From Thermoleophilia bacterium (GTDB taxonomy: Bacteria > Actinomycetota > Thermoleophilia > Gaiellales > Gaiellaceae), in NCBI GenBank assembly GCA_023382435.1, contig JAHDVS010000002.1:62001-126000 (forward strand): a stretch of 64,000 nt of DNA. Direction: 5' to 3'. The notes under the pieces were generated by a model. That model searched no databases, had not been told where the DNA came from, and saw nothing but the letters and a program-made list of their open reading frames with translations. A program made the position numbers and the translations under genes. Position 1 is the stretch's first letter. Every line of letters starts with the position of its first letter. Positions 1,273 to 20,451 of this stretch are shown in pieces.

Positions 1273-2778
1273 TCAGTCCGCGAGGTTCCCGAGATTCGAG
1301 CCCCAGGCGGCGCCGACGAGGACATCCTGCTCGGGGACGCCCTCGGGCATCGGCGCCTCGGGCGTCATCGTGTTCGTCGGCGCCGGCTCCACGAGACCCA
1401 CTCGACCACGCGGGCCAGGCCTGCGCAGGGCCGCGACGAGCTCGGGATCGAGATACCGGGCATTGACGTCGAGCAGGTCGTCGAGGAGCGCCTCGCAGTC
1501 GTAGAGGTCACGAACGGTCGGCTCGAACGCGATCGACTGGAGCGCCGCCTCGCGACTGCGATGGACGCATGCCTCGACGGCCTTCTCGTGGCAGACGAGC
1601 ATGCGCTGACAGAGGCTCGCGAGCGTGGCCGGTAGCTCGCCGACCGCGAACCCCCGAGGCCCGTGCGCGTCGAGCGTGCCGGGAACCTCGACGATCGAGC
1701 CCGGTGGCAGGTTCGTGATGTGACCGTCGTTCGGAACGTTGATCGCCTCGACCTGGTGCGGGCCCGTGCGGCCGGACAGAGCCAGCATCCAGTCGCCCGA
1801 CTCCTCGGTGCGAGGCGGGTTGAGGAAGCGCTCGAGCACGGCCGGGTCGCTCCGGATGCGCTCGGGCCCGCCCAGGACGCCGAGCCGGTTCTGCGCGAGC
1901 CCGTCCTTGATCAGCTCCACGGGCGGAAACGCCATGTCGAGCTTCGGGATCGGCGTCGAGTGCTGCATCTCCCTGCTCACGAACGGGAGCTGGTCGGCGA
2001 TGTGGTTGTCGCCGGGCGATGGGTAGTACCCGAGCAGCCGGTAGACGGCATTCGAGAAGCGGAAGCCGAACGGCCCGTTCTGGCGGATGTGCGGTAGCGC
2101 CGCGTCGATTCGCGGCAGCAAATCCTCGCCGGTGTGTCGATGCCACATCTTCAGGATGAACGTGAGGTGGTTGATGCCGGCGGCGATCACCTCGACGTCG
2201 TCCGGATCGAGGCCCATGGCCGTCGCCAGGTCGACCCGGGTGTGGATGATCCCGTCGCAGTGGCCCACGAAGCGGATCGACGAGTGGCGGCTGATCGCGT
2301 CGCAGATCCGAACGAGCGGGTTCGACACGGGGATGATCGTCGCCTCCGGAGAGACCTCCTCGAGCTCCCTCGCGACGCCGAGCGCGATCGGGACGTGCCT
2401 GAAGGTGTTGGCGAGCCCGCCGGGGGTCATCGTCTCCGCCTCGAGCGGGTAGACGCCGTGACGCTCGCACGCCTCGGTGTCCTGCACCCGCGTGCGCGGA
2501 TAGTCGACGCAGGCGGCAAAGAGGACGTGGTCGGCCCCGCGCAGCGCCTCCTTGCGGTCGGCGTGCAGCTCGAAATCGACCCGCACCCCGGACCGCTGGC
2601 GCACGTAGTCGAGGATCGACGCGACCGCCTCGCCGCTCTCCGGGTCGCGGGCCCAGATGCGCAGGCTGACGGGACGCATCCGCTCGTCGCTGAAGATGCG
2701 CCGGTAGAGGTCGAACGCATACCAGCCGCTCGAGCCGATCACCGCCACGTTCATCGTCCGGTCAGAGCCCTCGGCCAT
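1273..2778 (-). CDS. Glycoside hydrolase family 4 (NAD/Mn-dependent glycosidase)
   Basis: A 501-residue GH4 enzyme. This family cleaves alpha- or beta-glycosides by an oxidation-elimination route needing NAD+ and a divalent metal. Visible are an N-terminal Rossmann strand with a modified glycine loop (AVIGSSGWYAFDL, residues 12-24), the NP motif (VSNPLVRICDA, N153), the metal Cys in VGHCDG (C174; many members read CHG/CHS) and the metal His in GINHLTF (H204). The start at 2778 follows a strong ribosome site (GAGGGGGG). A GntR-type palindrome lies 23 bases upstream of the start. Members act on maltosides, galactosides, glucuronides or 6-phospho-sugars; the substrate here cannot be decided. A cytoplasmic location is likely, since no signal peptide is seen. 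Confidence 0.85.
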   Translation of the reverse strand: MAEGSDRTMNVAVIGSSGWYAFDLYRRIFSDERMRPVSLRIWARDPESGEAVASILDYVRQRSGVRVDFELHADRKEALRGADHVLFAACVDYPRTRVQDTEACERHGVYPLEAETMTPGGLANTFRHVPIALGVARELEEVSPEATIIPVSNPLVRICDAISRHSSIRFVGHCDGIIHTRVDLATAMGLDPDDVEVIAAGINHLTFILKMWHRHTGEDLLPRIDAALPHIRQNGPFGFRFSNAVYRLLGYYPSPGDNHIADQLPFVSREMQHSTPIPKLDMAFPPVELIKDGLAQNRLGVLGGPERIRSDPAVLERFLNPPRTEESGDWMLALSGRTGPHQVEAINVPNDGHITNLPPGSIVEVPGTLDAHGPRGFAVGELPATLASLCQRMLVCHEKAVEACVHRSREAALQSIAFEPTVRDLYDCEALLDDLLDVNARYLDPELVAALRRPGPRGRVGLVEPAPTNTMTPEAPMPEGVPEQDVLVGAAWGSNLGNLAD

Positions 2779-3953: not shown

Positions 3954-5390
3954 TCAGGTCCCCAGGTAGACGGTCTTCAGGCGCGTATAGAAGTCGACGG
4001 CAACGTTGCCCTGCTCGCGATAGGTGCCGCTGGAGGAGCTCTTGACCCCGCCGAAGGGCGCGTTCAGGTCGACGCCGGTGGTGGCCCGGTTGATCTTGAC
4101 CACACCGACCTCCGCCTCGTCGGCGTAGCGCATCGCAGCGCGCATGTCGTTGGTCACGATCCCGCCGGAGAGCCCGAATTCCGAGTCGTTCGCGAGCACG
4201 ATCGCCTCGTCGAGGCTGTCCACGGCAAGCACGCCGATGACGGGACCGAAGATCTCCTCACGGGCGATCCGCATGGCCGGCTTGACACCGGTGAAGACGG
4301 CCGGGCAGAGGAAGAGGTCGTCGCAGTCCCCGCCCGTGACGAGCTCGGCGCCCTCCTGCTTGCCGACGTCGATGTAGGAGAGATCGGTCTCGAGTTGACT
4401 TCGATCGACGACGGGGCCCATCCGCGTCCCGGCCGCCTGCCCGTCTCCCGGCCGCCAGGCCTCCGCCTCGCGCGCGAGCGCCTCGACGAACCGGTCATGA
4501 ACGCCCCGGGTGGCGATCACACGGCTGGTGGCGGTGCACGCCTGTCCGGTGAGGCCGAAGCCGCCCTGGGCGGCGACGCTGGCCGCGAACTCCGGGTCGG
4601 CGTCGTCGAGCACGACGAGCGCGTTCTTGCCACCCATCTCGAGCTGGACGCGGGCGAGGCGCGCGCTCCCGGCGGCGTGGATCCCGAGCCCGGTCTGGAC
4701 GGAGCCCGTGAAGCTGATCGCGGCGACCCTCGGGTCGTTGACGAGCGCGTCGCCGACGACGGAGCCGCGGCCGTGGACGATGTTCAGCACCCCCGGCGGC
4801 AGGCCAGCCTCGAGCAGGGCGAGAGCGAGGTTCTGGACGGAGACCGGGACGAGCGTGGCCGGCTTCATCACGACCGTGTTGCCGGACACGAGCGCCGGGG
4901 CGAGCTTCCAGGTCGGAATCGCGATCGGGAAGTTCCAGGGTGTGATCAGGGCGACCACACCGAGCGGCTCCTTGACGGTGTAGAGATGCGTGCTCGGCAG
5001 GCTCGCGGGGAGACTCTCGCCGGCGATCCGCCAGCCCTCCCCGGCGAAGAAGCGCAGGATGTCGATCGCGCGCTGCACCTCGCCGGTCGCCTCCGTCAGC
5101 GTCTTACCCTCCTCGGCGCAGAGGTCGCGCGCGGCCTCGTCTCTCCGGGCGGCGAGCAACTCGGCGGCACGCATGAGGATCGCGCCGCGGGCGGGAGCCG
5201 GCGTCCGCCGCCAGCCGGGAAAGGCCTCTTGCGCCGCCTGGAGAGCGGCGTCCACGTCGCTCGGGCCACCCGAGGGGATCTCGGCGACGATCTCGTCGCC
5301 GCGAGCCGGGTTGCGGCGCTCGCCGGCGGGCGAGCCGGTCCACTCGCCGCCGATCAGGTGCTGGACACGGACGGGGGCGGATGCACTCAT
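3954..5390 (-). CDS. Alpha-ketoglutarate semialdehyde (2,5-dioxovalerate) dehydrogenase
   Basis: A 478-residue NAD(P)-dependent aldehyde dehydrogenase. The cofactor region ([19 protein letters not shown]), the general-base Glu ([11 protein letters not shown]) and the nucleophile Cys in GQACTATSR are all present. The CTATSR context and overall length match 2,5-dioxovalerate dehydrogenases, which oxidise alpha-ketoglutarate semialdehyde to alpha-ketoglutarate in nonphosphorylative pentose and hexarate breakdown. The gene overlaps the preceding 2-keto-3-deoxy-pentonate dehydratase gene by ATGA (5387-5390), which makes exactly the expected substrate. That context raises confidence above a generic aldehyde dehydrogenase call. 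Succinate-semialdehyde dehydrogenase is the main alternative. Confidence 0.82.
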
Positions 5391-6244
5391 GCGGCTGCTC
5401 CTGGGGATCGGTAGACGGAATGGCGGAGGGCGCCGACGCCTTCGATCTCGATCTCGACGAGGTCGCCGTCCTCGAGGGTGAAGTCGTCAGGCGGGACGAG
5501 GCCGGTACCCGTCAAGAGCACGGCCCCTCGCGGATGTGAAAGCTCGCGGTAGAGGTAGCCGGCGAGCGTCTCGAAGGAGCGGCGCATCTGCGCCGTCGAG
5601 GTCTCACCCGAGAACACGGTGCCCCCGTCCCGCTCGATCGTCAGCGAGATCCGAGCGGCGCGCGCGCGCTCGCCGAGGTCGCGTGCGAGGACGATCGTGC
5701 CGGAGAGCCCGAGCGCGTCGTCGTAGATCTTGGCCTGCGCGAGGTAGAGCGGGTTCTGGCCCTCGATCGAGCGCGACGATACGTCGTCGGCGACGAGGTA
5801 GCCAGCGATCTCCCCGGCCCCGGTGAGGACCAGCGCGAGCTCGGGCTCCGGCACGTCCCAGGTCGAGTCTGCCCGCACGCGCAGCGGCGCCCCCGGCGGA
5901 GGAATGCGGCCCGGAACTGCCTTCAGGAACAGCTCGGGGCGGTCGGCATCGAATGCGAGGTCGTAGACGCTCTTGACCACGGCCTCCTCGACGCGTGCCT
6001 GGCGGGAGCGCTCGTACGTGACGCCCGAGGCCCAGACCTCCTGGACGTCGACGGGAGCAAGGACGGCTTCGGCCTCCCCGTCGAGCGAAGCCGCGGCCAG
6101 CGCCCGGTCGACCGCGTCGTGCAACGGTTCCAGCCCGGCCGCGAGGAGATCGCCGAGCGATCCCTCGAGCGGGTGGAGCGCGCCGTCGCGAGCGACGACG
6201 AGCAGCGGCTCACCGCGGTGGAGAACGCGCCGTAGACCGTTCAC
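5387..6244 (-). CDS. 2-keto-3-deoxy-pentonate dehydratase (FAH fold, XylX/AraD1-like)
   Basis: A 285-residue fumarylacetoacetate-hydrolase-fold protein. Its conserved blocks [42 protein letters not shown] (metal Glu pair) and [17 protein letters not shown] are those of the 2-keto-3-deoxy-xylonate/arabinonate dehydratase group, not of true fumarylacetoacetase. The reaction converts 2-keto-3-deoxy-pentonate to alpha-ketoglutarate semialdehyde. The GTG start at 6244 lies 11 bases after the stop of the Mo-hydroxylase large subunit; no strong ribosome site is visible. Its 3' end overlaps the semialdehyde dehydrogenase start by ATGA. The upstream dehydratase of the route may be the YjhG-like enzyme at 42830-44785. 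Whether xylose- or arabinose-derived acids are used is open. Confidence 0.82.
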
Positions 6245-6255
6245 GACGTCTGAGT

Positions 6256-8658
6256 TTACGCGGCTCCTCCGGGAGCCGCGGCGATCAACGCCCGTACCCG
6301 CTGCGGATCGAGCGGGGCCTCGTCGACGTGCACGCCGAACGGCGCGAGCGCGTCCTCGATCGCAGCGGCGGTGACGGCCGGGGGGCTGATCGAGCCGCCC
6401 TCGCCGGCTCCCTTGATGCCGAGCGGGTTGAGCGGCGAGGGCGTCTCGAGGTGATGGATCTCGATCGAGGGCACCTCGGTCGCGTAGGGCATCAGGAAGT
6501 CGAGGAACGACGCGTTGCGGTGCTGCCCGGTCTCGTCGTAGACCATCCGCTCGAAGAACGAGTTCGCCACGCCCTGGGCGACGCCACCGTGGATCTGCCC
6601 GTTCACGATCGCCGGGTTGACCATCACCCCGCAGTCGTGGACGACGACGTAGCGCAGGTAGCGCACGTCGCCGGTCCCCGGGTCGACCTCGACGATGGCG
6701 GCATGCACGCCGTTCGACCACGTGGTCGAGGACGGGGCCCAGAAGGCCGAGCCCTCGAGAAGGGGGCCGTCCCCCCGCTCGAAGCCCGACCACGTCCGGG
6801 CGGGTGCGAAACGCTCCACGCCGGCGGTCGAAGGGTCGAGGGTCGTGTAGCGGATCGGATTGACCGCGATCGCGATCTCCCGAAGCGACACCGAGCGCTC
6901 GGGAACGCCCCGGACATGGATCATTCCGCCGCCGACCTCTAGATCCTCGGCTGCGGCCTCGAGCATGTTCGCCGCGTAGCGAAGCGCCTTGTCCCTGACC
7001 TCCAGCGCCGCCAGCGAGATCGCGTTGGCGCAGTTGACGATCGCGCGGCTGCCGAACGTACCGGCGCCGAAGCCGAACGCGGCCGTGTTGCCCTCCTCGA
7101 TCTGTACCTGGTCTGGCTCGAGGCCGAGCACGTCGGCGGCGATCTGCGCGAACGTCGTCGCGTGCGACTGCCCCTGGGTGGTCAGCCCGGTCGTGACCTG
7201 CACCTTCCCGCTCGTCGGCTGCACGTAGACGCGCGCGCCCTCGTAGGGGCCCTCCCCGGTGCCCTCGACGTAGCAGGCGAGACCGAGACCCAGGTAGCGC
7301 CCTCGCTCACGCTCGAGCGCCTGCTCGGCTGCAAACCCGTCGTAGCCGATCGCGTCGAGCGCCAGCTCGAGCGCCTTCGGATAGTCGCCGGAGTCGAGCA
7401 CGACCGGGTAGCCGGCGAAGAAGAGACCCTCCCGGGCGTACGGAAAATCCTCCGGCTGGACGAGGTTGCGCCGGCGCAGCTCGGCCCGGTCGAGCCCGAG
7501 CTCGTGCGCGAGCAGGTCCACGGCCCGCTCGAGGGCGAAGCTCGACTGCGGCCGACCGACGCCGCGCATCGGGCTGACGGAGACCTTGTTCGTGTACACG
7601 CACCTGTAGCGGACGGAGACGTTGGGGATCCGGTAGCTGCCCGCGACGTGGCTCGCGGCGATCCACGGCGTGATCAGCCCGTAGGCGATGAACGCACCTT
7701 GATCCTGGACGAAGTCGTCCCGCAGGCCCGTGATCACCCCGTCGCGGGTTGCCGCCAGCTCGATCGTGTGGGCCTGGCCGCGCTGGTGATTGGATGCGAG
7801 GAAGTGCTCACGGCGGTCCTCGTTCCAGCGCACGGCGGCCCGGAGGCGCAGCGCGGCCAGCGGGACGAGCAGCTCCTCCGGGTAGAGCAGGTAGCCCTTG
7901 AGACCGAAGCCTCCCCCGACGTCGGGAGCGATCACGTGAAGCAGATCCTCGGGCAGCCCGAGCTTCGCGACCAGAGCCGAGCGGACCGGGAGCACGCACT
8001 GCGTCGTGTCCCAGACCGTCAGCGAGCCGGTGCCCGGATCGAGGCGGGCGAGAACGGCGCGAGGCTCCATCGGCATCGACGAGCTGCGCTCGCAGACGAA
8101 GCGGTGACGAACGACGATCTCCGCCTCGGCGAAGGCCCGGTCAGGGTCGCCGACCGTCCACGTACCGTCGGCGGCGACGTTGGTCGGCAGATCGGCATGG
8201 ACGAGCGGGCCCTGGTCGACGGCGGCCTCGTAGTCGACGACGGCCGGCAAGTCCTCGAGGTCGAGCTCGATCAACTCGACCGCGTCCTCGGCCGTGTAGC
8301 GATTCTCGGCGATCACCATCGCGATCGGCTGCCCGACGAAATCGACCTCGTCGACGGCCAGCGGCTGCTGGGTCTTCGGGTGGGGAAGATGCTCGTGCGG
8401 GAACAGCAGCGGCAGCGGCTCGGCGTGCTCGCCGAGGTCGGCATGCGTCCAGACGGCCGTGACGCCCGGGTGGGCGCGGGCCGCGGAGACGTCGAGCACG
8501 CGGATTCGTGCGTGCGCCACGGGGCTGCGCAGGAAGGCGACGTGAAGCGCGTCGGGCGCGCGCACGTCGTCGACGTACATCCCGCGCCCGCGCAGCAGGC
8601 GCTCGTCCTCGTTGCGAGCGACCGATCTCCCGATCACCCGCCCGGCCGCGCCGGTCAC
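6256..8658 (-). CDS. Mo hydroxylase large subunit (xanthine dehydrogenase / aldehyde oxidase family)
   Basis: An 800-residue molybdopterin-binding subunit. Visible are the N-terminal RGMYVDDV and VVDYEAAVD blocks, the Mo-cofactor loop GGGFGLKGY, the active-site loop [18 protein letters not shown], and the C-terminal catalytic Glu in [16 protein letters not shown]. The loop is not AYxCSFR, so this is not form-I CO dehydrogenase. It is more likely an aldehyde, sugar-lactone or heterocycle hydroxylase. The GTG start at 8658 overlaps the stop of the iron-sulfur subunit (GTGA), and all three subunits are in order FAD, 2Fe-2S, Mo. Its coupling to pentonate-pathway genes suggests oxidation of a sugar-derived aldehyde, as proposed for Mo aldehyde oxidoreductases in archaeal sugar pathways; this is inference. 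Confidence 0.88.
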
Positions 8659-9140
8659 GCCGAGGCCTTCCCCATCGCCCTGGCCGCGATCCGGACTGCC
8701 TCGACGATGTTCTGGTACCCGGTGCAGCGGCAGAGGTTGCCCGCGATCGCCTCGCGGATCGCCCCGTCCGAGAGGTCGACGGTCTCGCTCTCCTCGAGGA
8801 ATGCGGTGATCGCGAGCACGAAACCGGGCGTGCAGAAGCCGCACTGGAGCCCATGGGCCTCGCGAAACGCAGCCTGAACCGGGTGGAGCTCCTCGCCCTC
8901 CGCGAGCCCCTCGATCGTGCGCAGCTCGACCCCGTCCGCCTGCACGGCGAGCATCAGGCACGACCGGGCCGCCGCTCCGTCCACGAGGATCGTGCAGCAG
9001 CCGCAGACGCCGTGCTCGCAGCCGACGTGCGTGCCGGTCAGCCCGAGCTCGTGCCGGAGGAAATCGGAGAGGAGCAGGCGCGGCTCGACCTCGCGCTCGA
9101 CCCTCTCGCCGTTGACCGTCAGGGTGACCGCGTGCTTCAT
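8655..9140 (-). CDS. Mo hydroxylase 2Fe-2S subunit
   Basis: A 161-residue small subunit with two [2Fe-2S] clusters. The plant-type cluster uses CEHGVCGCC and the following RSC, and the second cluster uses QCGFCTPG and NLCRCTGYQNI near the C-terminus. It passes electrons from the molybdenum site to the FAD subunit. The ATG at 9140 overlaps the stop of the FAD subunit (ATGA), and its own stop overlaps the large subunit start (GTGA). Length and motifs are typical of CoxS/XdhC-type proteins. Confidence 0.92.
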   Translation of the reverse strand: MKHAVTLTVNGERVEREVEPRLLLSDFLRHELGLTGTHVGCEHGVCGCCTILVDGAAARSCLMLAVQADGVELRTIEGLAEGEELHPVQAAFREAHGLQCGFCTPGFVLAITAFLEESETVDLSDGAIREAIAGNLCRCTGYQNIVEAVRIAARAMGKASA

Positions 9141-9949
9141 GCTGCTCCTCCCGTCGCACGCTCCCGGGCGAGAGCGAGAGCACGCCCGCCGAGCACGGCG
9201 GCGAGCTCGCGCCGGTACCCGGCGGAGGCGTGGATGTCTCCCGCCGGCTCGATCGCGGCGTCCCAATCGGCCGGGTCGTCGGATTCGACCAGCACCGGCG
9301 TCGGCCCGAGCGCGGCGAAGCAGAGCCTCACGTGGTCGCCCGCCGCGATCGCCGCTGCTCCGGCGAGCGGGTAGTCGCCGTGGCGCCGGCTGAGCTCGAG
9401 GTAGGCGGATCCGGCGTCCGGACGCAGCGCCGGGAAGAAGACCTCCGTGAGGATCTCGTCCGGCTCGAGCGAGGTCGTGAAGTGGAACTGGAACAGCTCG
9501 TCCGCGTCGATCCTCCGCTCGCCACGCGGGCCGCGCACGGTGACGTGCCCGGCGAGCACGCGCAGCGCCGCGGGCAGCTCCGCGGCCGGGTCGGCGTGCG
9601 CGATCGTTCCGCCCACGGTGCCCCGGTTGCGAATCACGGGATGCGCGACGCAGCGCTGGGCCTCCCGCAGGAGCGGGCAGAGCCGCGCCGCGTCCACCGA
9701 GCGCTCGAGCTCGCGCTGGCTGGTCATCGCGCCCACCGCGACCCCGTCCTGCCCCGCCCTGACGTAGACGAGCTCGCGCACGCGGCGCAGATCGATCAGC
9801 GCGCTCGGCCGGGCGAAGCGGAGATTGAGAAGCGGGATCAGGCTCTGCCCTCCGGCCAGGATCGAGGCCTCGGGCCCGAGCTCGGTCCTGAGCCGGACCG
9901 CCTCGTCGAGCGTTGCGGGCGCGTGGTAGTCGAAGGGTGGCGGTTTCAC
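9137..9949 (-). CDS. Mo hydroxylase FAD subunit
   Basis: A 270-residue FAD-binding medium subunit (CoxM/XdhB type). FAD contacts are seen in AGGQSLIPLLNLRF (residues 32-45) and RNRGTVGGTIAHADPAAELP, with the usual C-terminal CO-dehydrogenase flavoprotein domain (SRRHGDYPLAGAAA). It accepts electrons from the iron-sulfur subunit and passes them to an acceptor. GTG start at 9949. It is the first gene of a six-gene operon (FAD, 2Fe-2S, Mo subunits, dehydratase, semialdehyde dehydrogenase, propeller), and a sigma-70-like promoter lies just upstream at 9974-10002. Confidence 0.9.
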   Translation of the reverse strand: MKPPPFDYHAPATLDEAVRLRTELGPEASILAGGQSLIPLLNLRFARPSALIDLRRVRELVYVRAGQDGVAVGAMTSQRELERSVDAARLCPLLREAQRCVAHPVIRNRGTVGGTIAHADPAAELPAALRVLAGHVTVRGPRGERRIDADELFQFHFTTSLEPDEILTEVFFPALRPDAGSAYLELSRRHGDYPLAGAAAIAAGDHVRLCFAALGPTPVLVESDDPADWDAAIEPAGDIHASAGYRRELAAVLGGRALALARERATGGAA

Positions 9950-10032: not shown

Positions 10033-11019
10033 TCAGGACTCGCCGGCGGCTGCGCCGGTGTGCGGGTCGCCGAGCAGGACCTCCCCACCTCGGAGAAGCT
10101 TGAGCCGGCGAACGATCTCGCGGTCGCGGGCGCGGCGGAACTCGCCCGGGTCGCGCGACGACCAGTCGTAGAAGCCCTTGCCCGCAGCCATCCCGGTCTC
10201 GCCGCGGCGGCGCAGCTCGCCGATGGGGCCCGAATCGGGATCGACGTCGCGCGCGAGGTCCGGCCAGACCTGCTTTGCCATCTCGCCCATCAGCTCGAGC
10301 CCCGCGAGATCGGCGTGCTCGAACGTCCCCATCACGGGGAGCCGATGGGCGAAGCCGTACTTGAGCACGGTGTCGCACGTCTCGGGCGTGACGTCGCCGC
10401 GGCCCACGAGGTAGACGAACTCCCGCAGGAGGGCCTGCTGGAGCCGGCTCCAGACGAAGCCGGGAATGTCCGCGCAGAGAGCCGGCATCTTGCCCGTGCG
10501 GCGAAGCAGCGCCGAGATCGTTTCCACGGTCTCCTCGCCCGTGCGGCGCCCCGGCACGACCTCGACGAGCATCATCAGGTGGGCGGGCTGCGCATAGTGG
10601 GCGACGACGAACCGCTCGGGGCGAGCGAGCGCCTCGGCGAGCGCGGTCGGGCTGAGCGACGACGTCGTGCTCGACAGTACCCCGTCGGACGGCGCCTCCC
10701 TCTCGGCGGCCGCGAGCAACTCCCGCTTCAACTCGAGCTGCTCGCTGACGGCCTCGATCGCGACCTCGACACCGTCGAGCGCACGCGCCCGCTCGGTCGT
10801 CAGCTCCACGCGTGCGAGCGCAGCCGCAGCATCCGGCTCCGTCACGAGCCCTTCCGAGGAGACGAACGCGGCGTTCGCACGCATGCGCTCCAGAGCGGAG
10901 GCGAGCCCCTCCTCGCGCCTTCCCCACAAGCGCACGACCTCGCCCCCCAGCGCGAAGCTGAGAGCGATGTCCGCCCCCATGACCCCTGAGCCGAGGACGG
11001 CTTGCGGCCGATCGCTCAT
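10033..11019 (-). CDS. 3-hydroxyacyl-CoA dehydrogenase family protein
   Basis: A 328-residue NAD-dependent dehydrogenase. The N-terminal Rossmann motif is GSGVMGADIALSFALGG, SSTTSSLSPTALAEA forms the middle of the NAD domain, and HYAQPAHLMMLVEVVPG holds the catalytic His region. A C-terminal helical domain contains FVWSRLQQALLREFVYLV. This family includes short-chain 3-hydroxyacyl-CoA dehydrogenase, L-carnitine dehydrogenase and L-gulonate 3-dehydrogenase; the sequence alone does not decide. It overlaps the MBL gene by ATGA and closes a cluster with CoA transferase and enoyl-CoA hydratase, which favours an acyl-CoA or carnitine-like substrate. Confidence 0.8.
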   Translation of the reverse strand: MSDRPQAVLGSGVMGADIALSFALGGEVVRLWGRREEGLASALERMRANAAFVSSEGLVTEPDAAAALARVELTTERARALDGVEVAIEAVSEQLELKRELLAAAEREAPSDGVLSSTTSSLSPTALAEALARPERFVVAHYAQPAHLMMLVEVVPGRRTGEETVETISALLRRTGKMPALCADIPGFVWSRLQQALLREFVYLVGRGDVTPETCDTVLKYGFAHRLPVMGTFEHADLAGLELMGEMAKQVWPDLARDVDPDSGPIGELRRRGETGMAAGKGFYDWSSRDPGEFRRARDREIVRRLKLLRGGEVLLGDPHTGAAAGES

Positions 11020-11975
11020 GTCGCGCACCCGACGTGAGGCCGGGCGGTCCGCTCCCACCCGCTGCCCGCGCGGGCGACGACACCCTGGCGTTCGAGATCG
11101 CGCAGATGGCCATCGATCGTGATCAGCGCCCGCCACTCCCGGAGCTTCCCGAGCCGTTCCGTCACGATGTCGCGGACGCGCGCGAGGTCGGCGCCCGGAA
11201 CCTCCTGCACGGCCTCGACGATCGCCTGCTCGATCTGCCGCGTCCGGTCGAGGCACTCGCCGGCCCAGGCGATCACCTCGTCGCGGCCGCACGGGTCGGC
11301 GTGACCGGAGAGGACCGACCGCACGTCACGGTCACGGGCGAGCTGCATGATGCGCCGGCAGGTGGCCCGGGTGTGGTGCGGCTCCTCGTAGAGAAACAGG
11401 ACGGGCACGTGGGTCGGCATCAACGCGTCGCCGAAGACGAGCGTGCCGCTCGAGCGCTCGAGGAAGCCGATCTCGCCAAGCGAGTGGCCGTGCAGCTCGA
11501 TCACCTCGAGCTCGACGCCGCCACCGAGGTTGACGACGTTCCCGTCCACCAGGTGCAGGTGAACCGGTGCTTCCTCCGCCTCCATCCAGTCGAGGTACTC
11601 GGGCTTCGGGTCGAAGACGGGCTCGGCGCCGGGAAAGCGCAACACCATCTGCTCGGCTCCGAGCTCGTGGTCTGCGATCCACGCGGCCCGCCGGGGGTGG
11701 GCGCCGACCAGCGCGCCCGACTCGCGCACCACCCGCGCGTTGTTGCCGATGTGATCCATGTGCTCGTGGGTGTTGAGCAGGAGATCGACACGGCTCATCG
11801 CGATGCCGACCTCGTCGAATGCCGCCTCGAGCTGGTCGTAGGCCCAGACGAGACCGGTGTCGATCAGCGCGACCCGGTCGGCCCCCTGGACGATGTGAAC
11901 CGTCACCGACACGTTCGACTGATCGCCCTTGAGCTGCATGTTCAGGGTCGAGATGGGGCCGTGCCTCCACAACAT
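11016..11975 (-). CDS. Metallo-beta-lactamase-fold hydrolase
   Basis: A 319-residue cytoplasmic MBL-fold protein. The zinc motif NTHEHMDHIG (HxHxDH) is followed by a metal His in ELHGHSLGEIG, an Asp in VFGDALMP and a last His in LSGHADP, a full set for a dinuclear site. The C-terminal 80 residues are helical, as in SoxH/glyoxalase-II-like relatives. The ATG at 11975 is preceded by GAGGAG at good spacing. Neighbours process acyl-CoA compounds, so a thioesterase- or lactonase-type hydrolysis is plausible, but no substrate can be assigned. Confidence 0.8.
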   Translation of the reverse strand: MLWRHGPISTLNMQLKGDQSNVSVTVHIVQGADRVALIDTGLVWAYDQLEAAFDEVGIAMSRVDLLLNTHEHMDHIGNNARVVRESGALVGAHPRRAAWIADHELGAEQMVLRFPGAEPVFDPKPEYLDWMEAEEAPVHLHLVDGNVVNLGGGVELEVIELHGHSLGEIGFLERSSGTLVFGDALMPTHVPVLFLYEEPHHTRATCRRIMQLARDRDVRSVLSGHADPCGRDEVIAWAGECLDRTRQIEQAIVEAVQEVPGADLARVRDIVTERLGKLREWRALITIDGHLRDLERQGVVARAGSGWERTARPHVGCAT

Positions 11976-11990
11976 GGACGTCTCCTCGGG

Positions 11991-12779
11991 TCAGCGCCCG
12001 CCGAAACGAGGCTCGCGCTTCTCGAGGAACGCGCGAATGCCCTCGCGGGCGTCGTCGGTCGCATACAGGTTCGAGAGCACGCGCTGCTCGAGCGCGAGGC
12101 CGGTCGGGAGCGACGCCTGAACCCCATCGTCGATCAGGCGCTTGCCCTCGCGGATGGCGAGCGGCGCCCCGGCCGCGAGCCGCTCCGCAAGGTCGAGCGC
12201 GGCGGGCATGAGCTCGTCCGGTTCGGCCACCGCTACGAGGAGACCGCGCCGCTCGGCCTCGTCGGGGCGCATGAACCGCCCGGTCAGCACGAGCTCCTTC
12301 GCGGCCCTCGTCCCGATCGCGCGCGGCAGCCGCTGCGTGCCGCCGCCGCCGGGGAGCAGTCCGAGCTTGATCTCGGGCAGCCCGAAGCGGGCCACGGTCG
12401 AGGCGACGATCAGGTCGCAGGCGAGCGCGACCTCGAAGCCGCCGCCGAGCGCGTAGCCGTTGACAGCGGCGATCGTCGGCTGCGGCAGCGCCTCGAGCGC
12501 GTCGAACGTGCGGCGCGAGAGGCGCTGGTAGTCGTCGAATGCGGCCTGCGTGACGCCGTCGTACTCACCGATGTCGGCGCCCGCGATGAAGCCCTTCCCG
12601 GTCCCGGTGAGGACGAGGGCGCGCACCGATCCGTCGCGAGCGAGACCGCCGAGGTAGCTCTCGAGGGCCTCGACCATCCCCCGCGACAGCGCCCCGAGAG
12701 CCTCCTCGCGCTCGATGCGCAGGACGGCGACGGAGTCGCGGCGGTCCTCGACGAGACCCGGGTGGAGCCCACCGTTCAT
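11991..12779 (-). CDS. Enoyl-CoA hydratase/isomerase (crotonase) family protein
   Basis: A 262-residue crotonase. The oxyanion-hole strands are GKGFIAGADIGEY and NGYALGGGFEVALACD; both catalytic Glu of the hydratases are present (GGGFE and LPEIKLG). A true hydration of an enoyl-CoA is therefore likely. It overlaps the CoA transferase by ATGA (12776-12779) and is followed by an MBL protein and a 3-hydroxyacyl-CoA dehydrogenase. The order CoA transferase, hydratase, dehydrogenase recalls carnitine/crotonobetaine or short branched acid pathways. Confidence 0.87.
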   Translation of the reverse strand: MNGGLHPGLVEDRRDSVAVLRIEREEALGALSRGMVEALESYLGGLARDGSVRALVLTGTGKGFIAGADIGEYDGVTQAAFDDYQRLSRRTFDALEALPQPTIAAVNGYALGGGFEVALACDLIVASTVARFGLPEIKLGLLPGGGGTQRLPRAIGTRAAKELVLTGRFMRPDEAERRGLLVAVAEPDELMPAALDLAERLAAGAPLAIREGKRLIDDGVQASLPTGLALEQRVLSNLYATDDAREGIRAFLEKREPRFGGR

Positions 12780-14006: not shown

Positions 14007-15191
14007 TCAACCCGCGGCTGTCGAGAGCCGCCCTCCCCGGGCGGGGCGGTGCTCGCGGTAGAGCCGCTCGAGCGCCGAGGCGATCACCCGGGCGGGCACC
14101 CCGGCGCCGAGCCGCTCGGCGAGGAGGCCGCCGGCTGCCTCCTGGAAGCCCGGCCACCAGGCGTCGCGAGGCCGCACCCAGGGCGACTCGACCGTCCTCC
14201 GGGTGCCGCTGAAGAAGCCACCGGCCTGAGCATCGAGGGCCGGGTCGAGCCACGCGGCCCGGCTCGCGGGCTGGCCGCCCGCGGGGAACACGATGTCCGC
14301 CTGTGCGCGCGCCCCGCAGACCCAGGCCGCAAACGCCGCGGCCTCACCGGCCCGGACGCTCTCGGCGGAGACCGCGAGGCCGGCCCCGCCGAGGATCGAG
14401 CCCGTGGGGCCGTGGCCGGCCGAGGGGATGTCGAGAAAGCGCAGCCGCTGCCGGCCCGCGGGCTGCGCGCGCGCGTAGTTCGTGTAGCCGAAGGCAAGCG
14501 GGACGTAGGCGATCTCTGCCGTCGTGCTCATCCGCTCGAACACCGCGGGCGGGCCAGCGTGGAGCGAGGCCGGGTGCAGCAGCGGCAGCAGGTCGGCGAG
14601 CGTCGCCACCGCCCGCTCCCCCGTGATCGGGTCGAGAAAGAGCGTCGGCCCGGCTGCCGCCGCGACCCCCGAGTTGGCGCAGATCGTGAGCAGGGAGCAG
14701 ATCGCGTCGGTCGGGTAGAGGGGCAGCGCGACCCGGCCGGGTCGGGAGCTGGCCAGCTCGAGCACCTCGCGCCACGTCGCCGGGGCCGGGCAGCCGATCT
14801 CCTCGAGGAGATCATCGCGCGCCGCGGCGACCTGGCAGGCGGTGTCGACCGCGAGCGCCCACTGGCTGCCCGCATACCCGTAGGCGTCGTGGCTCCCGCC
14901 GACCGAGTCGGCGGCGAGGACCTCGAGTTCGGCGGGGTCGAGCAGCCGCTCGAGCGGCGCCAGACACCCCAGCTCGGCCGCGGTGCCGACGAACGGGTGG
15001 TCGACCACGAGCAGGTCGTAGCGACCGGTCAGCTCCGAGAGCGGCTGATCGTTGAACGCCGCGAGCGGGCGGGTCTCCCACTCGATCGCCGCCGACCCGC
15101 TCAGCCCGGACCAGGCGGCCGCGGCCGCTCGCATCGGCGCGACGCAGCGCTCGTGGTCCCAGGCGATTCCCCGCAGTGCGCCTCCTCCCAT
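14007..15191 (-). CDS. Solute-binding-protein-like protein without a signal peptide
   Basis: 394 residues with the overall plan of family-1 extracellular sugar-binding proteins: a RYDLLVVDHPF strand, PAPATWREVLELAS (typical P-x-TW-x-E-V), AEIAYVPLAFGY and a late WWPGFQEAAGGLLAERL. Yet the N-terminus at the ATG (15191) is MGGGALRGIAWDHERC, with no signal peptide or lipobox, and no in-frame upstream extension encodes one before the divergent GntR gene. No permease or ATPase adjoins it; the next genes encode a CoA transferase and acyl-CoA enzymes. It may act as a cytoplasmic ligand-binding protein or ligand sensor, or be secreted by another route. Function unknown. Confidence 0.7.
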   Translation of the reverse strand: MGGGALRGIAWDHERCVAPMRAAAAAWSGLSGSAAIEWETRPLAAFNDQPLSELTGRYDLLVVDHPFVGTAAELGCLAPLERLLDPAELEVLAADSVGGSHDAYGYAGSQWALAVDTACQVAAARDDLLEEIGCPAPATWREVLELASSRPGRVALPLYPTDAICSLLTICANSGVAAAAGPTLFLDPITGERAVATLADLLPLLHPASLHAGPPAVFERMSTTAEIAYVPLAFGYTNYARAQPAGRQRLRFLDIPSAGHGPTGSILGGAGLAVSAESVRAGEAAAFAAWVCGARAQADIVFPAGGQPASRAAWLDPALDAQAGGFFSGTRRTVESPWVRPRDAWWPGFQEAAGGLLAERLGAGVPARVIASALERLYREHRPARGGRLSTAAG

Positions 15192-15263: not shown

Positions 15264-16067
15264 ATGGAGGGAGATGGCCTCCCGAACATCGTCGGCCTGC
15301 GTGACGCGGCGCCGAGCCGCGCGTGCGACCTCGTCGTCGACCAGCTCCGCTCGCTGATCATCGGGGGGCAGCTCGAGCCGGGCAGTCGGTTGCCGGCCGA
15401 ACGCGACCTCGCCCTGCGCTTCCAGACGAGTCGGGCGACGATCAGCCAGGCGCTGCGGATCCTGGCGGCGCTCGGCCTCGTCGAGATCCACCATGGCAGC
15501 GGCGTCTACGCATCGCCCCACCCGGACCGGCTGCTCACCCATTCGCTCGAGCTGATCCTCGCGCTCGACCGGCCGAGCATGATCCGGCTGTGCGAGGTGC
15601 GCGGCTGGCTCGAGGTGGCCGCGATCGCCAGGGCGGCCGAGATCGCAACACCGGCCGACGTCGAGGCGATCCGCGCCGAGCTCGACCGCCTCGCCTCGGA
15701 GCGCCGGTCGGTCGAGCGCTGGCTTGCCCACGACATCGAGTTTCACAGGGCTGTCCTCCGCGCGACCGGGAACATGATCGCGCTGTCGATGGTCTCGAGC
15801 GTGCTCGAGCTGATGGCCTCGGCCCGCGTGCGCGAGTACCGGGAAGCAGGCACCGCCCCCGACTGGTTTCGAGACGAGTGGGAGAGCGTGGTCGCGATCC
15901 ACATGCGCATCACCGACGCGATCGCCGCTCACGACGTCACGGCTGCCCACGCGGCCGCCGGGGAGCATCAGGAGCGCCTCGCGCACTTCGTCGCGGAGAT
16001 CGACCCGTGGGCCGAGGCCGCGCCGCGACCGCGGGCCGCGGCGCGACGGGCGAGCGGCACGCGCTGA
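15264..16067 (+). CDS. GntR family regulator, FCD subfamily
   Basis: 267 residues. The DNA-binding wing region has the signature LPAERDLALRFQTSRATIS and GLVEIHHGSGVYAS; the FCD domain follows, with the metal element HDIEFHRAVLRATGN and the late HAAAGEHQERL. Two in-frame ATGs exist (15255, 15264). I prefer 15264 because TACGAT at 15251-15256 looks like a -10 box placed 7 bases before it, giving a leaderless transcript. It is divergent from the signal-less solute-binding-like gene and the acyl-CoA cluster, its likely target. Confidence 0.88.
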   Translation: MEGDGLPNIVGLRDAAPSRACDLVVDQLRSLIIGGQLEPGSRLPAERDLALRFQTSRATISQALRILAALGLVEIHHGSGVYASPHPDRLLTHSLELILALDRPSMIRLCEVRGWLEVAAIARAAEIATPADVEAIRAELDRLASERRSVERWLAHDIEFHRAVLRATGNMIALSMVSSVLELMASARVREYREAGTAPDWFRDEWESVVAIHMRITDAIAAHDVTAAHAAAGEHQERLAHFVAEIDPWAEAAPRPRAAARRASGTR

Positions 16068-16238: not shown

Positions 16239-17357
16239 CTACGTCGCGAGCGTGAAGGCGAAGACGTCCTCACCCGCGGCGGAGAGCAGCGCATCCCCGC
16301 TCTCGGCGAAGAGGTGGAGCCGGCGCGGCTCGAAGTGCACACGTACCTCCTGGTCCTCGGACAGGGCCAGCGCCGGTGAGGCGATGGCCTTGACCACCCG
16401 ATTGTCGAGATTGAGATCGACGATCGTCTCGCCGCCGAGCGGCTCCGTCGCGTAGATCGTCGCCGGCATGCCCTCGCCGGCGAGCTCGACGCGGACGTCC
16501 TCGGGACGCACGGCTACGAGGCACGCGGCTCCTTCGGGGAGCCGCTCGCGGAGGTGCGCGGCCGCCGCCGCCACCTGGAAGCGCGGATGCGAGACCCTGA
16601 GCGTCCCCTCCTCCCAGGACGCGGTCGCGCGCAGGAAGTTCATCGGAGGGGATCCGACGACGGTGGCCACGAAGCGATTCGCCGGCCGGTGGTAGATCTC
16701 CGCGGGCGCCCCGACCTGCTGAACCACCCCTTCGCGGAGGACCAGGATCCGGTCGGCCATCGACATCGCCTCGACCTGGTCGTGGGTGACGTAGATCATC
16801 GTGCGGCCCACGTCGCGCTGCAGGCGCTTCAGCTCGGTGCGCATCTCGAGACGCAGTAGCGCGTCGAGGGCCGAGATCGGCTCGTCGAGCAGGTAGGCCT
16901 CCGGCTCCCGAACGATCGCGCGCCCGAGCGCCACGCGCTGGCGCTCGCCGCCGGAGAGCTTCGCGGGCCTCCGCTCGAGCAGGTGCTCGATCCGGAGCGT
17001 TCGCGCCGTCGCCCGCACGCGCTCCTCGATCTCGCCTTTCGCGATCTTCTGCTGCTTGAGGGGGAAGGCCAGGTTCTTGAAGACCGTGCGGTCCGGGTAG
17101 AGCGCCAGGTTCTGGAAGACGATCGCGATGTCGCGATCGCCGGGATACGTCTCCGTGACCCGCTCGCCGCCGAGGTACACGTCGCCCTCGTCCGGCTTCT
17201 CGAGACCGACGATCGTCCGCAGCGTCGTGGTCTTGCCCGCGCCGGGCGGCCCGAGGATGGCGAAGAACTCGCCGTCCGCCACCTCGAACGACACGCCGTC
17301 CAGAGCCGTGATCGCGCCGAAGCGCTTGGTGATGTTCTCGAGCCGGATGCCAGCCAT
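16239..17357 (-). CDS. ABC sugar importer ATPase (MsmK/UgpC-type), canonical subunit
   Basis: 372 residues. Walker A is GPPGAGKTTT (the family norm is GPSGCGKST), the signature is LSGGERQRVALGRA, Walker B is AYLLDEPISALD, the D-loop SALD and the switch THDQVEAMSMADR are intact. The C-terminal OB-like regulatory domain (VRPEDVRVEL...LGGETIVDLNL) is that of CUT1 sugar importers. It overlaps the second ATPase gene by one base (TGATG) and ends the importer operon that starts at 22260. With the partner it would form a mixed ATPase dimer in which this subunit supplies the good signature motif. Confidence 0.9.
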   Translation of the reverse strand: MAGIRLENITKRFGAITALDGVSFEVADGEFFAILGPPGAGKTTTLRTIVGLEKPDEGDVYLGGERVTETYPGDRDIAIVFQNLALYPDRTVFKNLAFPLKQQKIAKGEIEERVRATARTLRIEHLLERRPAKLSGGERQRVALGRAIVREPEAYLLDEPISALDALLRLEMRTELKRLQRDVGRTMIYVTHDQVEAMSMADRILVLREGVVQQVGAPAEIYHRPANRFVATVVGSPPMNFLRATASWEEGTLRVSHPRFQVAAAAAHLRERLPEGAACLVAVRPEDVRVELAGEGMPATIYATEPLGGETIVDLNLDNRVVKAIASPALALSEDQEVRVHFEPRRLHLFAESGDALLSAAGEDVFAFTLAT

Positions 17358-18466
17358 CAGCGGATCGCGTGCTCGGTCTCGTCGTCGAACAGGTGCACGT
17401 CCGCGGCCTCGAAGGCGATACCGACGTTGTCGCCGACCCGCAGCGGGGCATCCGGCCGGGCCACGGAGCGGATGTCGGCGCCGTCGAGACGGAGGTGGAT
17501 CACGTCCGTGGCGCCGAGCGGCTCGATGGCGGTGATCGATCCCCGCACGAGCGCCTCGTCCGCATCGGGCCCGACCAGGCGGACCTTCTCGGGCCTCACC
17601 ATCAGCGTGAGCGGCAGGCCGGCTCCGGCGCGCTCCGCGAGCGGCACCTTCCGATCGGAGACGTCGATCGGCTTCGAGCCGGTGCCCGTCACGCGCACGA
17701 CGACGCCGGCTCCACTCGCTTCGGGCACGACCGGCAGGAAGTTGTTGAGAACCGAGCCGATGAAGTTCGCGACGAACCTGTTCTCCGGGCGGTTGTAGAG
17801 CTCATCGGGCGTGCCGTACTGCTGCAACTGGCCGCGATCCATCACGGCGATCCGGTCGGCCATCCCCATCGCCTCCACCTGGTCGTGCGTCACGTACACC
17901 ATGGTCTGTCCGATCTCGTGCTGGATCCGCTTCAGCTCCGCACGCATGTACGCGCGAAAGGAGGCGTCGAGGTTCGAGAACGGCTCGTCGAGGAGGAAGA
18001 TCGCCGGCCTCACGATCATGCTGCGGCCGAGCGCGGCCTTCTGGAGATCGTTGACGGACAGCCGCGTCACGCGTCGCTCGAGCTGCTCGGACAGCCCGAC
18101 CGTCCGGGCGACGGCCCTTACCTCGCGGTCGATCTCGTCCTTCGGCGGCCGCGGCTTGCGCATCCGGAGACCGAACGCGAGGTTCTCGTACACGGTCATG
18201 TGCGTGAAGATCGCGTAGTTCTGGAAGACGAAGCCGACGCTCCGCTTCTCCGGCCCGAGTCCGGAGACCGGGAAGTCGTCGAAGTAGATCTCGCCCGCGG
18301 TTGGACGCTCGAGGCCGGCGATCATGTTCATCGTCGTCGTCTTGCCGCACCCGGACGGCCCGAGCAGGGCGATGAAGGAGCCGTGCTCGGCCACCAGGTC
18401 GAGCCCATCGACCGCCCGTACCTCGTCGAAGTGCTTCGTCAGTTTCTCGAGACGGATCTCTGCCAT
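17357..18466 (-). CDS. ABC sugar importer ATPase with degenerate signature motif
   Basis: 369 residues. Walker A (GPSGCGKTTTMN), Walker B (IFLLDEPFSNLD) and the switch THDQVEAMGMADR are standard, but the LSGGQ signature is replaced by LSVNDLQKAALGRSM. In paired CUT1 ATPases (for example glycerol-type importers) one partner often has such a changed signature, giving one active and one impaired ATP site. The C-terminal TOBE-like domain is present (VRPEKVRLVG, LGATDVIHLRL). The start at 18466 lies 2 bases past the permease stop. Same operon as the two permeases and the binding protein. Confidence 0.88.
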   Translation of the reverse strand: MAEIRLEKLTKHFDEVRAVDGLDLVAEHGSFIALLGPSGCGKTTTMNMIAGLERPTAGEIYFDDFPVSGLGPEKRSVGFVFQNYAIFTHMTVYENLAFGLRMRKPRPPKDEIDREVRAVARTVGLSEQLERRVTRLSVNDLQKAALGRSMIVRPAIFLLDEPFSNLDASFRAYMRAELKRIQHEIGQTMVYVTHDQVEAMGMADRIAVMDRGQLQQYGTPDELYNRPENRFVANFIGSVLNNFLPVVPEASGAGVVVRVTGTGSKPIDVSDRKVPLAERAGAGLPLTLMVRPEKVRLVGPDADEALVRGSITAIEPLGATDVIHLRLDGADIRSVARPDAPLRVGDNVGIAFEAADVHLFDDETEHAIR

Positions 18467-18468
18467 CG

Positions 18469-19392
18469 CTATCGCTTGATCGCTCCGAAGGTAAGGCCGC
18501 GCACGAGATAGCGCTGGATCGCGAGCCCGAAGATAGCGGGCGGCAGGATCAGCAGGCACGCGAGCGCAGCCTGGAGCCCGTATTCGTTCCCCGAGGCCCC
18601 GCCCTGGAGCGACTGGAGGTAGACGGGCGCGGTGCTGTGGACGTCGGTCGTCATCACTTTCGCGATCAGGAAGTCCGACCAGTTGAGGATGAAGACGAAC
18701 AGCCCGGTCGCGGCGAGCCCGCCCTTGACCTGGGGGAGCACGGCCTTGAAGAAGGCGCCCCACTGGGTGCAGCCGTCGACGATCGCGGCCTCCGAGATCT
18801 CACGCGGCACATCCTGGAAGAAGCTGCGCATCAGCCACACGACGAAGGGGAACGTGATCGCCCCGTAGAGGATGATCACCCCCCAGTAGGTGTCATAGAG
18901 CTTGATCGCCACGTAGAAGAAGAGCAGGGGGATGATGATCGCGACCGGCGGAAACATCCGCAGCTGGAGGATCTGGAACGGCAGCAGCCCACCCCCCGCC
19001 CGGAAGCGCGCGATGCCGTAGGCGGTGACGATGCCGGCGAACAGAGCCAGCAGCGTGCCGCCGACCGAGAGGATGATCGAGTTCTTGAACGGCGTCAGAG
19101 CCGAGGCCGAGCGCTGGGTCGCGAACACGCTGTCTTCGGTGCTCTTGAGACCGAGGAGGTTCGTGTAGTTGTCGATGGTCGGGCTCTGGGGAGCCCAGTA
19201 GACCTTGCCCGGCGGGTTCCACTCCGGCCTCGGCTTGAAGGACATCGACACGACCCAGTAGAGCGGGAAGGCGAAGAAGGAGGCGATCATGACCACGGCG
19301 ACCACCTTCACCCACGGCCGCGCGACAACCCACCTCGACGTGCTGGCATCCGCGGTGAAGCGAACGCGCTCTTCCTGGGGCATCGTCGTCAT
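18469..19392 (-). CDS. Carbohydrate ABC transporter permease (MalG-type)
   Basis: 307 residues with about six membrane helices (for example VKVVAVVMIASFFAFPLYWVV at residues 29-49). The EAA loop that docks onto the ATPases reads EAAIVDGCTQWGAFFKAVLP, and the C-terminus (AIQRYLVRGLTFGAIKR) is typical of MalG-like proteins. The ATG at 19392 overlaps the other permease stop by one base (TGATG). It forms the transmembrane dimer with the MalF-type protein at 19392-20429. Confidence 0.92.
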   Translation of the reverse strand: MTTMPQEERVRFTADASTSRWVVARPWVKVVAVVMIASFFAFPLYWVVSMSFKPRPEWNPPGKVYWAPQSPTIDNYTNLLGLKSTEDSVFATQRSASALTPFKNSIILSVGGTLLALFAGIVTAYGIARFRAGGGLLPFQILQLRMFPPVAIIIPLLFFYVAIKLYDTYWGVIILYGAITFPFVVWLMRSFFQDVPREISEAAIVDGCTQWGAFFKAVLPQVKGGLAATGLFVFILNWSDFLIAKVMTTDVHSTAPVYLQSLQGGASGNEYGLQAALACLLILPPAIFGLAIQRYLVRGLTFGAIKR

Positions 19393-20429
19393 CAGATTTG
19401 CGCCTCCGCCTCGATTGCTTCCTCGATCCGCGGGCCTGCCCCCGCTGCCCGTGCCTCCGCGCCGGCGAGCTCCTCGAGCGTCTCCTCCTGCGCCCGCTCG
19501 ATCGGGCGGATGGCCCAGTAGCCGGCGATCGAGACGAAGATCAGCACGAGGATCGCCACGGAGCTCGCGTACCCCCAGCGTGTGGCCACGGACGTCTCGT
19601 CGAAGAGGAAGATCGAGATGTTGGTCGTCGCCTCGCCCGGCCCCCCGCGCGTGAGCAGGTAGATCGGGTCGAACATCTTGAAGGCCTCGAGCCCGCGGAT
19701 GATGAGCGCGATCAGGATGATCAGCTTCATCATGGGCAGAGTCAGGTAGCGAAGCTGCTGCCAGAACCCGGCGCCGAGGATCCTGGCCTGGTTCACCTGA
19801 TCCTCCGGGAGCGCCGCGAGACCCGAGAGGAAGATGAGGAACATGAGCGGGGTCCACTGCCAGATATCGACGGTCATGACCGTCCAGATGGCGACGTTCG
19901 CATTCTGGAGCCATTCGATCTGGACGACGCCCGGGAGGATCGCCGACAGGGCCCCGTTCACGGGCCCGTCGACCTGGTAGAGCATGAAGAAGATGAAGCC
20001 GGAGACCGCGGGCACGACCATCATCGGCAGTAGGAAGAACACGGTCACGAGCCCGCGGCCGCGGAAGTTCTTTACGAGGAGCATCGCGAGCGCGAAGCCG
20101 AGGACGGCCTCGACCGTGACGCAGACGACGGTGATCAGCACGGTCCGCCACATCGCCTCCCAGAATGTGACGCTGGTGAGGGCCTCCCAGTAGCCGTCGA
20201 ACCAGTGCCAGTGGCGGTACGCGTGCCAGAAGTCGTCGCCGCTCGTCGGCGACCAGCCGGTGAAGCCGATGTAGATGGCGACGCCGGCCGGGAAGAGGAC
20301 GATGAACGCCAGCAGCAGCTGGCCAGGAGCGACCAGGAGCTTCGCCACCCGCTTCTCGTCGCGGCCACCGAAGCCCGGCAACCGCGAGTGCGGCTGCCGG
20401 GCTTCGATCTGGGAGTTGTGTGCTTCCAC
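19392..20429 (-). CDS. Carbohydrate ABC transporter permease (MalF-type)
   Basis: 345 residues. A hydrophobic first helix (LLLAFIVLFPAGVAIYIGF) is followed by a periplasmic loop and about five further helices. The EAA-like loop reads NQARILGAGFWQQLRYLTLP, weaker than in its partner. The C-terminal tail of about 35 residues is Glu/Ala-rich. It lies 22 bases after the lipoprotein binding-protein gene and overlaps the next permease. Together with 16239-19392 and 20452-22260 it completes a CUT1-type importer for a sugar, polyol or glycoside. Confidence 0.9.
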   Translation of the reverse strand: MEAHNSQIEARQPHSRLPGFGGRDEKRVAKLLVAPGQLLLAFIVLFPAGVAIYIGFTGWSPTSGDDFWHAYRHWHWFDGYWEALTSVTFWEAMWRTVLITVVCVTVEAVLGFALAMLLVKNFRGRGLVTVFFLLPMMVVPAVSGFIFFMLYQVDGPVNGALSAILPGVVQIEWLQNANVAIWTVMTVDIWQWTPLMFLIFLSGLAALPEDQVNQARILGAGFWQQLRYLTLPMMKLIILIALIIRGLEAFKMFDPIYLLTRGGPGEATTNISIFLFDETSVATRWGYASSVAILVLIFVSIAGYWAIRPIERAQEETLEELAGAEARAAGAGPRIEEAIEAEAQI

Positions 20430-20451
20430 GCGGCGGTTCGGTGACGCGCTG

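Follow-up and report, generated by a model that had tools for sequence, protein, structure and literature searches.

What does a protein with the fold of an exported sugar-binding protein do when it carries no apparent export signal and its gene heads a run of acyl-CoA genes? The question is raised by a gene in a 64,000-nucleotide stretch (hereafter, the window; positions 62,001–126,000) of contig JAHDVS010000002.1 from a Thermoleophilia bacterium. An earlier note on this DNA had described the product as a 394-residue protein with the layout of family-1 sugar-binding proteins, and had proposed a cytoplasmic binding protein that senses or carries the substrate of an acyl-CoA pathway, a role that would be new for the fold.

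The assignment to the solute-binding proteins (SBPs) was borne out by sequence and structure comparisons. In a Pfam scan, the window protein scored 42.2 bits against SBP_bac_8 (cut-off, 27 bits) and matched SBP_bac_1 under the cut-off; the NCBIfam scan matched no families. Among 22 family members scanned, SBP_bac_1 was found in all 22 and SBP_bac_8 in 18 (Pfam, E ≤ 0.01), the NCBIfam MalE model was touched weakly by two, and a profile of 22 members retrieved the trehalose/maltose-binding protein (PDB ID: 1eu8) with an E-value of 1.5e-19. An AlphaFold2 model of the window protein, built with a 14-sequence alignment, had a mean pLDDT of 90.9 and a pTM of 0.89. Its best Foldseek match was SmoF (7yzu; E 2.9e-19) and its best VIA-align match was the alpha-glycoside-binding protein 6jan (Z 38.2, rmsd 2.7, 372 residues). 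The structure matches span model residues 1–387, and strand 1 of the fold comprises residues 6–11. The two-lobe sugar-SBP fold predicted by the model is not in doubt. Pfam gave SBP models only, and no DNA-binding domain of the kind present in LacI- or LysR-type regulators was found in the window protein.

The window protein therefore resembles family-1 sugar SBPs (6jan, 6j9y, trehalose/maltose-binding protein 1eu8, SmoF 7yzu, and LpqY 7ape; Z 36.8–38.2) over nearly the full length of the fold, and it keeps their RP motif at R340 and their GG motif at positions 268–269. It differs from them in the absence of a signal or lipobox, in the replacement of the ligand residues D118 and W287, and in its pairing with a CaiB-type CoA-transferase and a hydratase, whereas the importer nearby has an SBP of its own.

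The N-terminus of the window protein, MGGGALRGIAWDHERC, contains no hydrophobic stretch, and neither a signal peptide nor a lipobox for export was found in the protein, in agreement with the earlier note. The closest in-frame upstream start is about 100 codons away, within the divergent GntR gene, and the best 12-residue hydropathy in the 60 codons upstream is 0.39. A hidden signal or a wrong start in the window gene was thus considered and rejected: the upstream frame is not hydrophobic, and the upstream start that, according to the earlier note, might restore a signal was not found in the window.

We then examined the surroundings of the gene (Table 1). As described earlier, it lies at the head of acyl-CoA genes (CaiB and ECH) and diverges from a GntR/FCD regulator, assignments that Pfam upheld. 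The minus-strand run that it heads continues with the genes for CaiB, crotonase, metallo-beta-lactamase-fold hydrolase, 3HCDH, the three Cox subunits (CoxMSL), FAH, aldehyde dehydrogenase, an ORF, and GH4, and we infer that this run is one transcript. No NCBIfam equivalog reached its cut-off for the window CaiB, and the 356-aa ORF of this run had no NCBIfam match at E ≤ 1e-20. The CoxL-type subunit, which narrowly exceeded the cut-off of an aerobic CODH model, scored 602.3 bits against NCBIfam glyceraldehyde dehydrogenase alpha (cut-off, 790); given the sugar-acid-like gene run, the real substrate of this enzyme may be an aldehyde. The closest syntenic locus (L025) keeps the GntR, SBP, CaiB, metallo-beta-lactamase-fold, 3HCDH, and Cox genes; no crotonase was detected there. 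Three genes of sugar-acid type downstream in the window (FAH, dioxovalerate-dehydrogenase-like, and GH4) were absent from the earlier note.

Table 1. Features of the window, with three genes of a second SBP-like family at other loci (positions within each locus).
Feature	Position	Strand	Basis and remarks
Second GntR/FCD regulator	490-1200		Pfam; past far end of catabolic run
GH4-family glycosidase	1273..2778	minus	Pfam Glyco_hydro_4 and 4C
ORF, 356 aa	2833-3903		Pfam beta-propeller match far under cut-off
Aldehyde dehydrogenase	3954..5390	minus	Nearest 2,5-dioxovalerate/alpha-ketoglutaric semialdehyde dehydrogenases; NCBIfam 563.8 bits, below equivalog cut-off 750
FAH-family protein	5387..6253	minus	Pfam FAA_hydrolase
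CoxL-type molybdenum subunit	6256..8658	minus	NF040766 CODH_aero_grp5, 953.5 vs cut-off 950
CoxS-type iron-sulphur subunit	8655..9146	minus	NCBIfam glyceraldehyde dehydrogenase gamma, 206.9 bits, below cut-off 290
CoxM-type FAD subunit, molybdenum hydroxylase	9137..9949	minus	NCBIfam glyceraldehyde dehydrogenase beta, 198.6 bits, below cut-off 350
3-Hydroxyacyl-CoA dehydrogenase family	10033..11103	minus	Pfam 3HCDH_N and 3HCDH; kept in L025
Metallo-beta-lactamase-fold hydrolase, 319 aa	11016..11975	minus	Pfam Lactamase_B; also in L025
Enoyl-CoA hydratase/isomerase family (crotonase), 262 aa	11991..12779	minus	Pfam ECH_1; 4 bp overlap with CaiB
CaiB/BaiF class III CoA-transferase, 392 aa	12776..13954	minus	CoA_transf_3, 334.8 vs 23.3 bits; 52 bp downstream of SBP gene
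Leaderless SBP-fold protein, 394 aa	14007..15191	minus	ORF, Pfam, AlphaFold model, fold matches
Divergent GntR/FCD transcriptional regulator	15264..16067	plus	Pfam GntR and FCD
ABC importer, two ATPases and two permeases	16239..20429	minus	Behind GntR gene; permeases Pfam BPD_transp_1
Second importer ATPase	17357 to about 18463		Assigned from ORF translation alone
Exported SBP of importer, 602 aa	20452..22260	minus	Pfam SBP_bac_1; hydrophobic stretch and lipobox LAAC
Second leaderless SBP-like family, L017	9173-10426		
Second leaderless SBP-like family, L031	1435-2622	minus	
Second leaderless SBP-like family, L052	about 12541-13788		

The statement that no transporter genes adjoin the gene stands for its direct neighbours only. 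One gene away, behind the GntR gene, lies an importer (16239–22260), whose first ATPase is of the MalK/UgpC type and which owns a lipobox SBP.

To place the window protein in a family, relatives were gathered from GTDB genomes (15 loci), plasmids (146 matching records, 15 of them inspected), and further genomes. After removal of duplicates by hand, the final set comprised 45 full-length members, the window included, with a median pairwise identity of 38% and a minimum of 24%. By the organism names of the matches, the family occurs in Actinomycetota, Bacillota, Pseudomonadota, Bacteroidota, and Verrucomicrobiota. It is nevertheless rare. Among 61 near relatives, five matched at E ≤ 0.001, three of them clearly (the window genome, G015, and G028) and two as weak partial matches; the family was found in three of 396 genomes of the phylum, in six of 337 genomes of the class of G457, and in five of 299 of the class of G456, counts that include the centre genomes and may be undercounts, since few first-look candidates were scored per genome. 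Ninety of the 146 plasmid records were from Sinorhizobium. A Verrucomicrobia MAG carries an SBP-like gene in two pieces (L019, 8001–8955; matches to 31–275 and 280–370), possibly through a frameshift; this broken gene stands outside the 45 members and inside the 46-locus neighbourhood count. Flanks are short at some loci (e.g., L018 and L047), so that neighbours there may be missed.

We asked whether the missing signal extends to these relatives, in which, as the earlier note had pointed out, an N-terminal signal sequence would speak against a cytoplasmic protein. An in-frame upstream stop leaves at most 20 codons in 26 of the 45 members (at most 10 codons in 14), and 13 of the other 19 have no start codon 8–60 codons upstream. 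A hidden signal or a wrong start was hence rejected for most of the family, as 39 of 45 members leave no room for a signal. Six members do have an upstream start. In five of these, the best 12-residue hydropathy from those starts is only up to 1.34; the sixth, L047, has an in-frame hydrophobic stretch (best 12-residue hydropathy, 2.93) that can be reached from TTG codons only, its ATG and GTG starts coming after the stretch. The stretch is either a chance occurrence in AT-rich DNA or a membrane-directed start in a single member. L047 and L012 are two copies from one genome, L047 being the second. Because the start codon nearest to the fold was taken as the start of each member, the short distance of about 5 residues or less between start and fold reflects a choice; this choice is backed by the 14 annotated plasmid records, in all of which annotated start and homology start differ by no more than 21 bp. 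The stop and start counts, together with these annotated starts, assign the missing signal to the family: as predicted from sequence, its absence is a family trait across five phyla, L047 apart, and the putative cytoplasmic placement largely held for the relatives.

As a control for the hydropathy of the N-termini, we used 14 SBPs outside the family that are encoded at these loci. The best values of the 45 members had a median of 0.48 and a maximum of 1.80 (L037), whereas nine control SBPs with recognisable signals gave 1.62–2.44 and the other five 0.59–1.63, the start of two of these five (L055 and L061) being seemingly placed too far downstream. The control is imperfect in that the ranges overlap, with members up to 1.80 and true signals from 1.62. 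A loose lipobox pattern within the first 45 residues occurred in nine of 45 members, and we read these matches as the MVAC, MAAC, or MTAC of helix 1.

Next, we focused on CaiB, since the earlier note had suggested checking conservation of the neighbourhood of SBP-like, CaiB, and enoyl-CoA hydratase genes. Of 46 loci, 38 had a CaiB gene no more than 6.5 kb from the family gene, and in 29 the distance was 200 bp or less; in 37 of the 38, the two genes shared a strand. When the flanks of 11 loci were lengthened, 38 of the 45 members had a CaiB gene at a distance of up to 8.5 kb. The association is conserved across phyla; hydratases recur as well, in the form of ECH (19/45) or MaoC (16/45). In nine of 14 annotated plasmid records, the SBP gene overlaps with CaiB, and at one locus (L091) two family paralogues, each with its own CaiB, lie beside crotonase and MaoC genes. 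No SBP–CaiB gene fusion was seen in the loci inspected. Of the seven members without CaiB nearby, six carry a mandelate-racemase/enolase-superfamily (MR_MLE) gene and one lies on a 7.6-kb contig; a strict role as a CaiB subunit is therefore not required everywhere.

Evolutionary distances of the family protein and of CaiB were correlated over 28 linked pairs (r = 0.90; reached in 0 of 5000 permutations), a correlation to which shared ancestry contributes. The split CaiB of L010 (gap of 330 in the pair set, 26 in the locus count) fell outside these pairs; this gene of Cohnella thermotolerans (6789–7972) is in two pieces, possibly owing to a frameshift. The genome of the window encodes nine unlinked CaiB proteins, of which seven fell outside the linked groups in a midpoint-rooted FastTree phylogeny of CaiB; the two inside them were L079, at the left edge of the window, and L080, just to the left of the window. 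As a control in the same genome, none of six SBP_bac_1 matches lay within 200 bp of any of the 10 CaiB genes. Four of these ten CaiB genes are carried on the window's contig.

The wider gene content of the loci bears on the substrate. Within up to 8.5 kb of the 45 members, raw similarity matches to seed proteins identified genes for SDR (26), MR_MLE (19), ECH (19), MaoC (16), Gfo/Idh (13), FAH (9), and aldose epimerase (8), in addition to ABC permeases (27), exported-type SBPs (15), and regulators (IclR, 16; LacI, 10; GntR, 4). As ABC permeases occur near 27 of 45 members, missing transporter genes are no family trait, and given these permeases and the exported-type SBPs near 15 of 45, the family may have a link to transport. 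We further extended six plasmid loci picked for a common IclR/ugpC arrangement (Roseibium, two from Shinella, Pararhizobium, Nitratireductor, and a record labelled Roseateles). In all six of these chosen loci, an annotated L-fuconate dehydratase lies 9–12 kb from the family gene, these clusters, of Rhizobiales and the Roseateles record, being of the L-fucose oxidative type, and three of the six contain an FAH-family gene. A Microvirga locus contains mannonate dehydratases and a gluconolactonase-type gene, without CaiB. The window gene differs from the L-fucose clusters in that no enolase-superfamily gene was found within 6.5 kb of it. To our knowledge, the textbook L-fucose oxidative pathway includes neither a CoA-transferase nor a leaderless SBP.

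The surroundings thus point to sugars or sugar acids instead of acyl-CoAs, and this context argues against acyl-CoA as the probable ligand. Acids other than sugar acids would be equally plausible substrates for the ECH, 3HCDH, and CoxMSL proteins of the window. Part of the clusters with the leaderless SBP family also contain, together with Gfo/Idh, MaoC, and CaiB, a second SBP-like family, which is distantly related and likewise shows no apparent signal (Table 1); in L017, its start is preceded by 8 codons after a stop, and in L052 the conserved N-terminus reaches the stop. This second family would suggest that a move of SBPs into the cytoplasm happened more than once.

Conserved residues were then compared, by alignment, with known ligand positions. 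Twenty-three alignment columns, including W11, R15, W38, D64, D116, Q307, W314, and R340, are invariant in 45 of 45 members, and H13 (43/45), H65, Y104, Y236, and Y239 (44/45 each) are nearly so. In the HMMER alignment, R340 falls opposite R356 of the alpha-glycoside-binding protein, and two aligned ligand positions of that protein are altered in the window protein (D118 to A118 and W287 to A270); the part of the 6jai alignment that covers D118 is weak (i-Evalue 15), and the 1eu8 alignment agrees with it. R356, D118, and W287, along with R49, which falls outside the alignment, are the residues mutated in the PDB entry titles of the alpha-glycoside-binding protein. We read the ligand site as probably kept but altered, and the ligand as putatively acidic, because the conserved Arg and His would suit one.

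On this sequence and context evidence, the window protein is probably cytoplasmic and probably works in CoA-linked sugar-acid catabolism inside the cell. Uptake and oxidation of a sugar would yield a sugar acid or a closely related compound, on which the leaderless SBP-fold protein would act; its usual partners would be a CaiB/BaiF CoA-transferase and a hydratase of the crotonase or MaoC type. The sugar acid would be bound in the cleft between the lobes, and CaiB would convert the ligand or the product of the SBP-fold protein into the CoA thioester. Whether this action is catalysis or binding is where the explanations part. That the protein senses or carries the pathway substrate, as the earlier note held, is possible; an enzyme derived from an SBP would fit at least as well.

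Such an enzyme might isomerise or dehydrate a sugar acid, or open its lactone, just before or after CoA transfer, and we lean to it, tentatively, because the family is retained in MR_MLE loci that lack CaiB (six of the seven CaiB-free loci) and because of the content typical of catabolic operons, which consist mostly of enzymes, transporters, and regulators. The strong conservation of polar residues (R15, D64, D116, and R340 in 45/45) and the partial loss of the ligand residues of the alpha-glycoside SBP are consistent with it, as is the precedent of enzymes evolved from SBPs (PMC7683729, in its accessible part), but a tightly conserved ligand would equally account for the conservation, and the catalysis proposed is putative. 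A non-catalytic cytosolic holder that buffers the sugar acid or presents it to CaiB would explain the overlap or near-overlap of the two genes, the correlated distances, and the paralogues of L091 with a CaiB each. We nevertheless regard a holder as somewhat less likely than an enzyme in view of the seven CaiB-free loci and of the class III CoA-transferases known to us, which work without an SBP-type partner.

Evidence on regulation and export concerns two further explanations. A cytosolic sensor, which on binding its ligand would modulate a regulator, be it the divergent GntR or a different one, would agree with the divergent GntR gene in the window and in L025 and with the regulator genes near many members (IclR, LacI, and GntR); yet the regulator type varies while CaiB mostly stays, and the window GntR has an FCD ligand domain of its own, which makes a sensor improbable. 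A true transport SBP, its signal lost or hidden by a mis-annotated start or replaced by non-classical export, might be expected from the fold, from the ABC importer one gene away, from the permeases near 27 of 45 members, and from the hydrophobic stretch upstream of L047. With 39 of 45 members leaving no opening for a signal and the nearby importer having its own lipobox SBP, this is the explanation that we consider very improbable.

Cytosolic use of the SBP fold is as such already known, a point on which the earlier note needs changing. Ortega et al. (2022; PMC9602780) report, in the accessible part of their paper, cytosolic single-domain proteins with other functions that match SBP Pfam models, and the window protein resembles these in matching an SBP model and having no signal peptide; a leaderless SBP family and a link to CaiB are not described in that part. 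Enzymes descended from SBPs are likewise known (PMC7683729, accessible part), among them cyclohexadienyl dehydratase, to which the window protein is likened for its use of the SBP fold outside transport, the enzyme role being here a candidate one. Our search of the literature on cytosolic SBPs and on a leaderless, CaiB-linked SBP family, a search outside which most subscription papers lay, found no description of the latter, and the leaderless family and its CaiB link thus appear to be undescribed. All 14 annotated plasmid records label the family protein as an "extracellular solute-binding protein" or a "carbohydrate ABC transporter substrate-binding protein"; as the family is leaderless, a family spanning five phyla is probably mislabelled.

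We tentatively envisage a cross-phylum SBP family that may have moved to the cytoplasm. There, in an undescribed sugar-acid route that depends on CoA and involves CaiB and crotonase or MaoC, it might now act either as an enzyme or as an obligate partner for substrate binding. The combination of CaiB, a hydratase, and sugar-oxidising partners points to a sugar-acid route via CoA thioesters that we did not find in the literature, and the leaderless SBP family would offer a clear case for how a binding protein gains an intracellular job.
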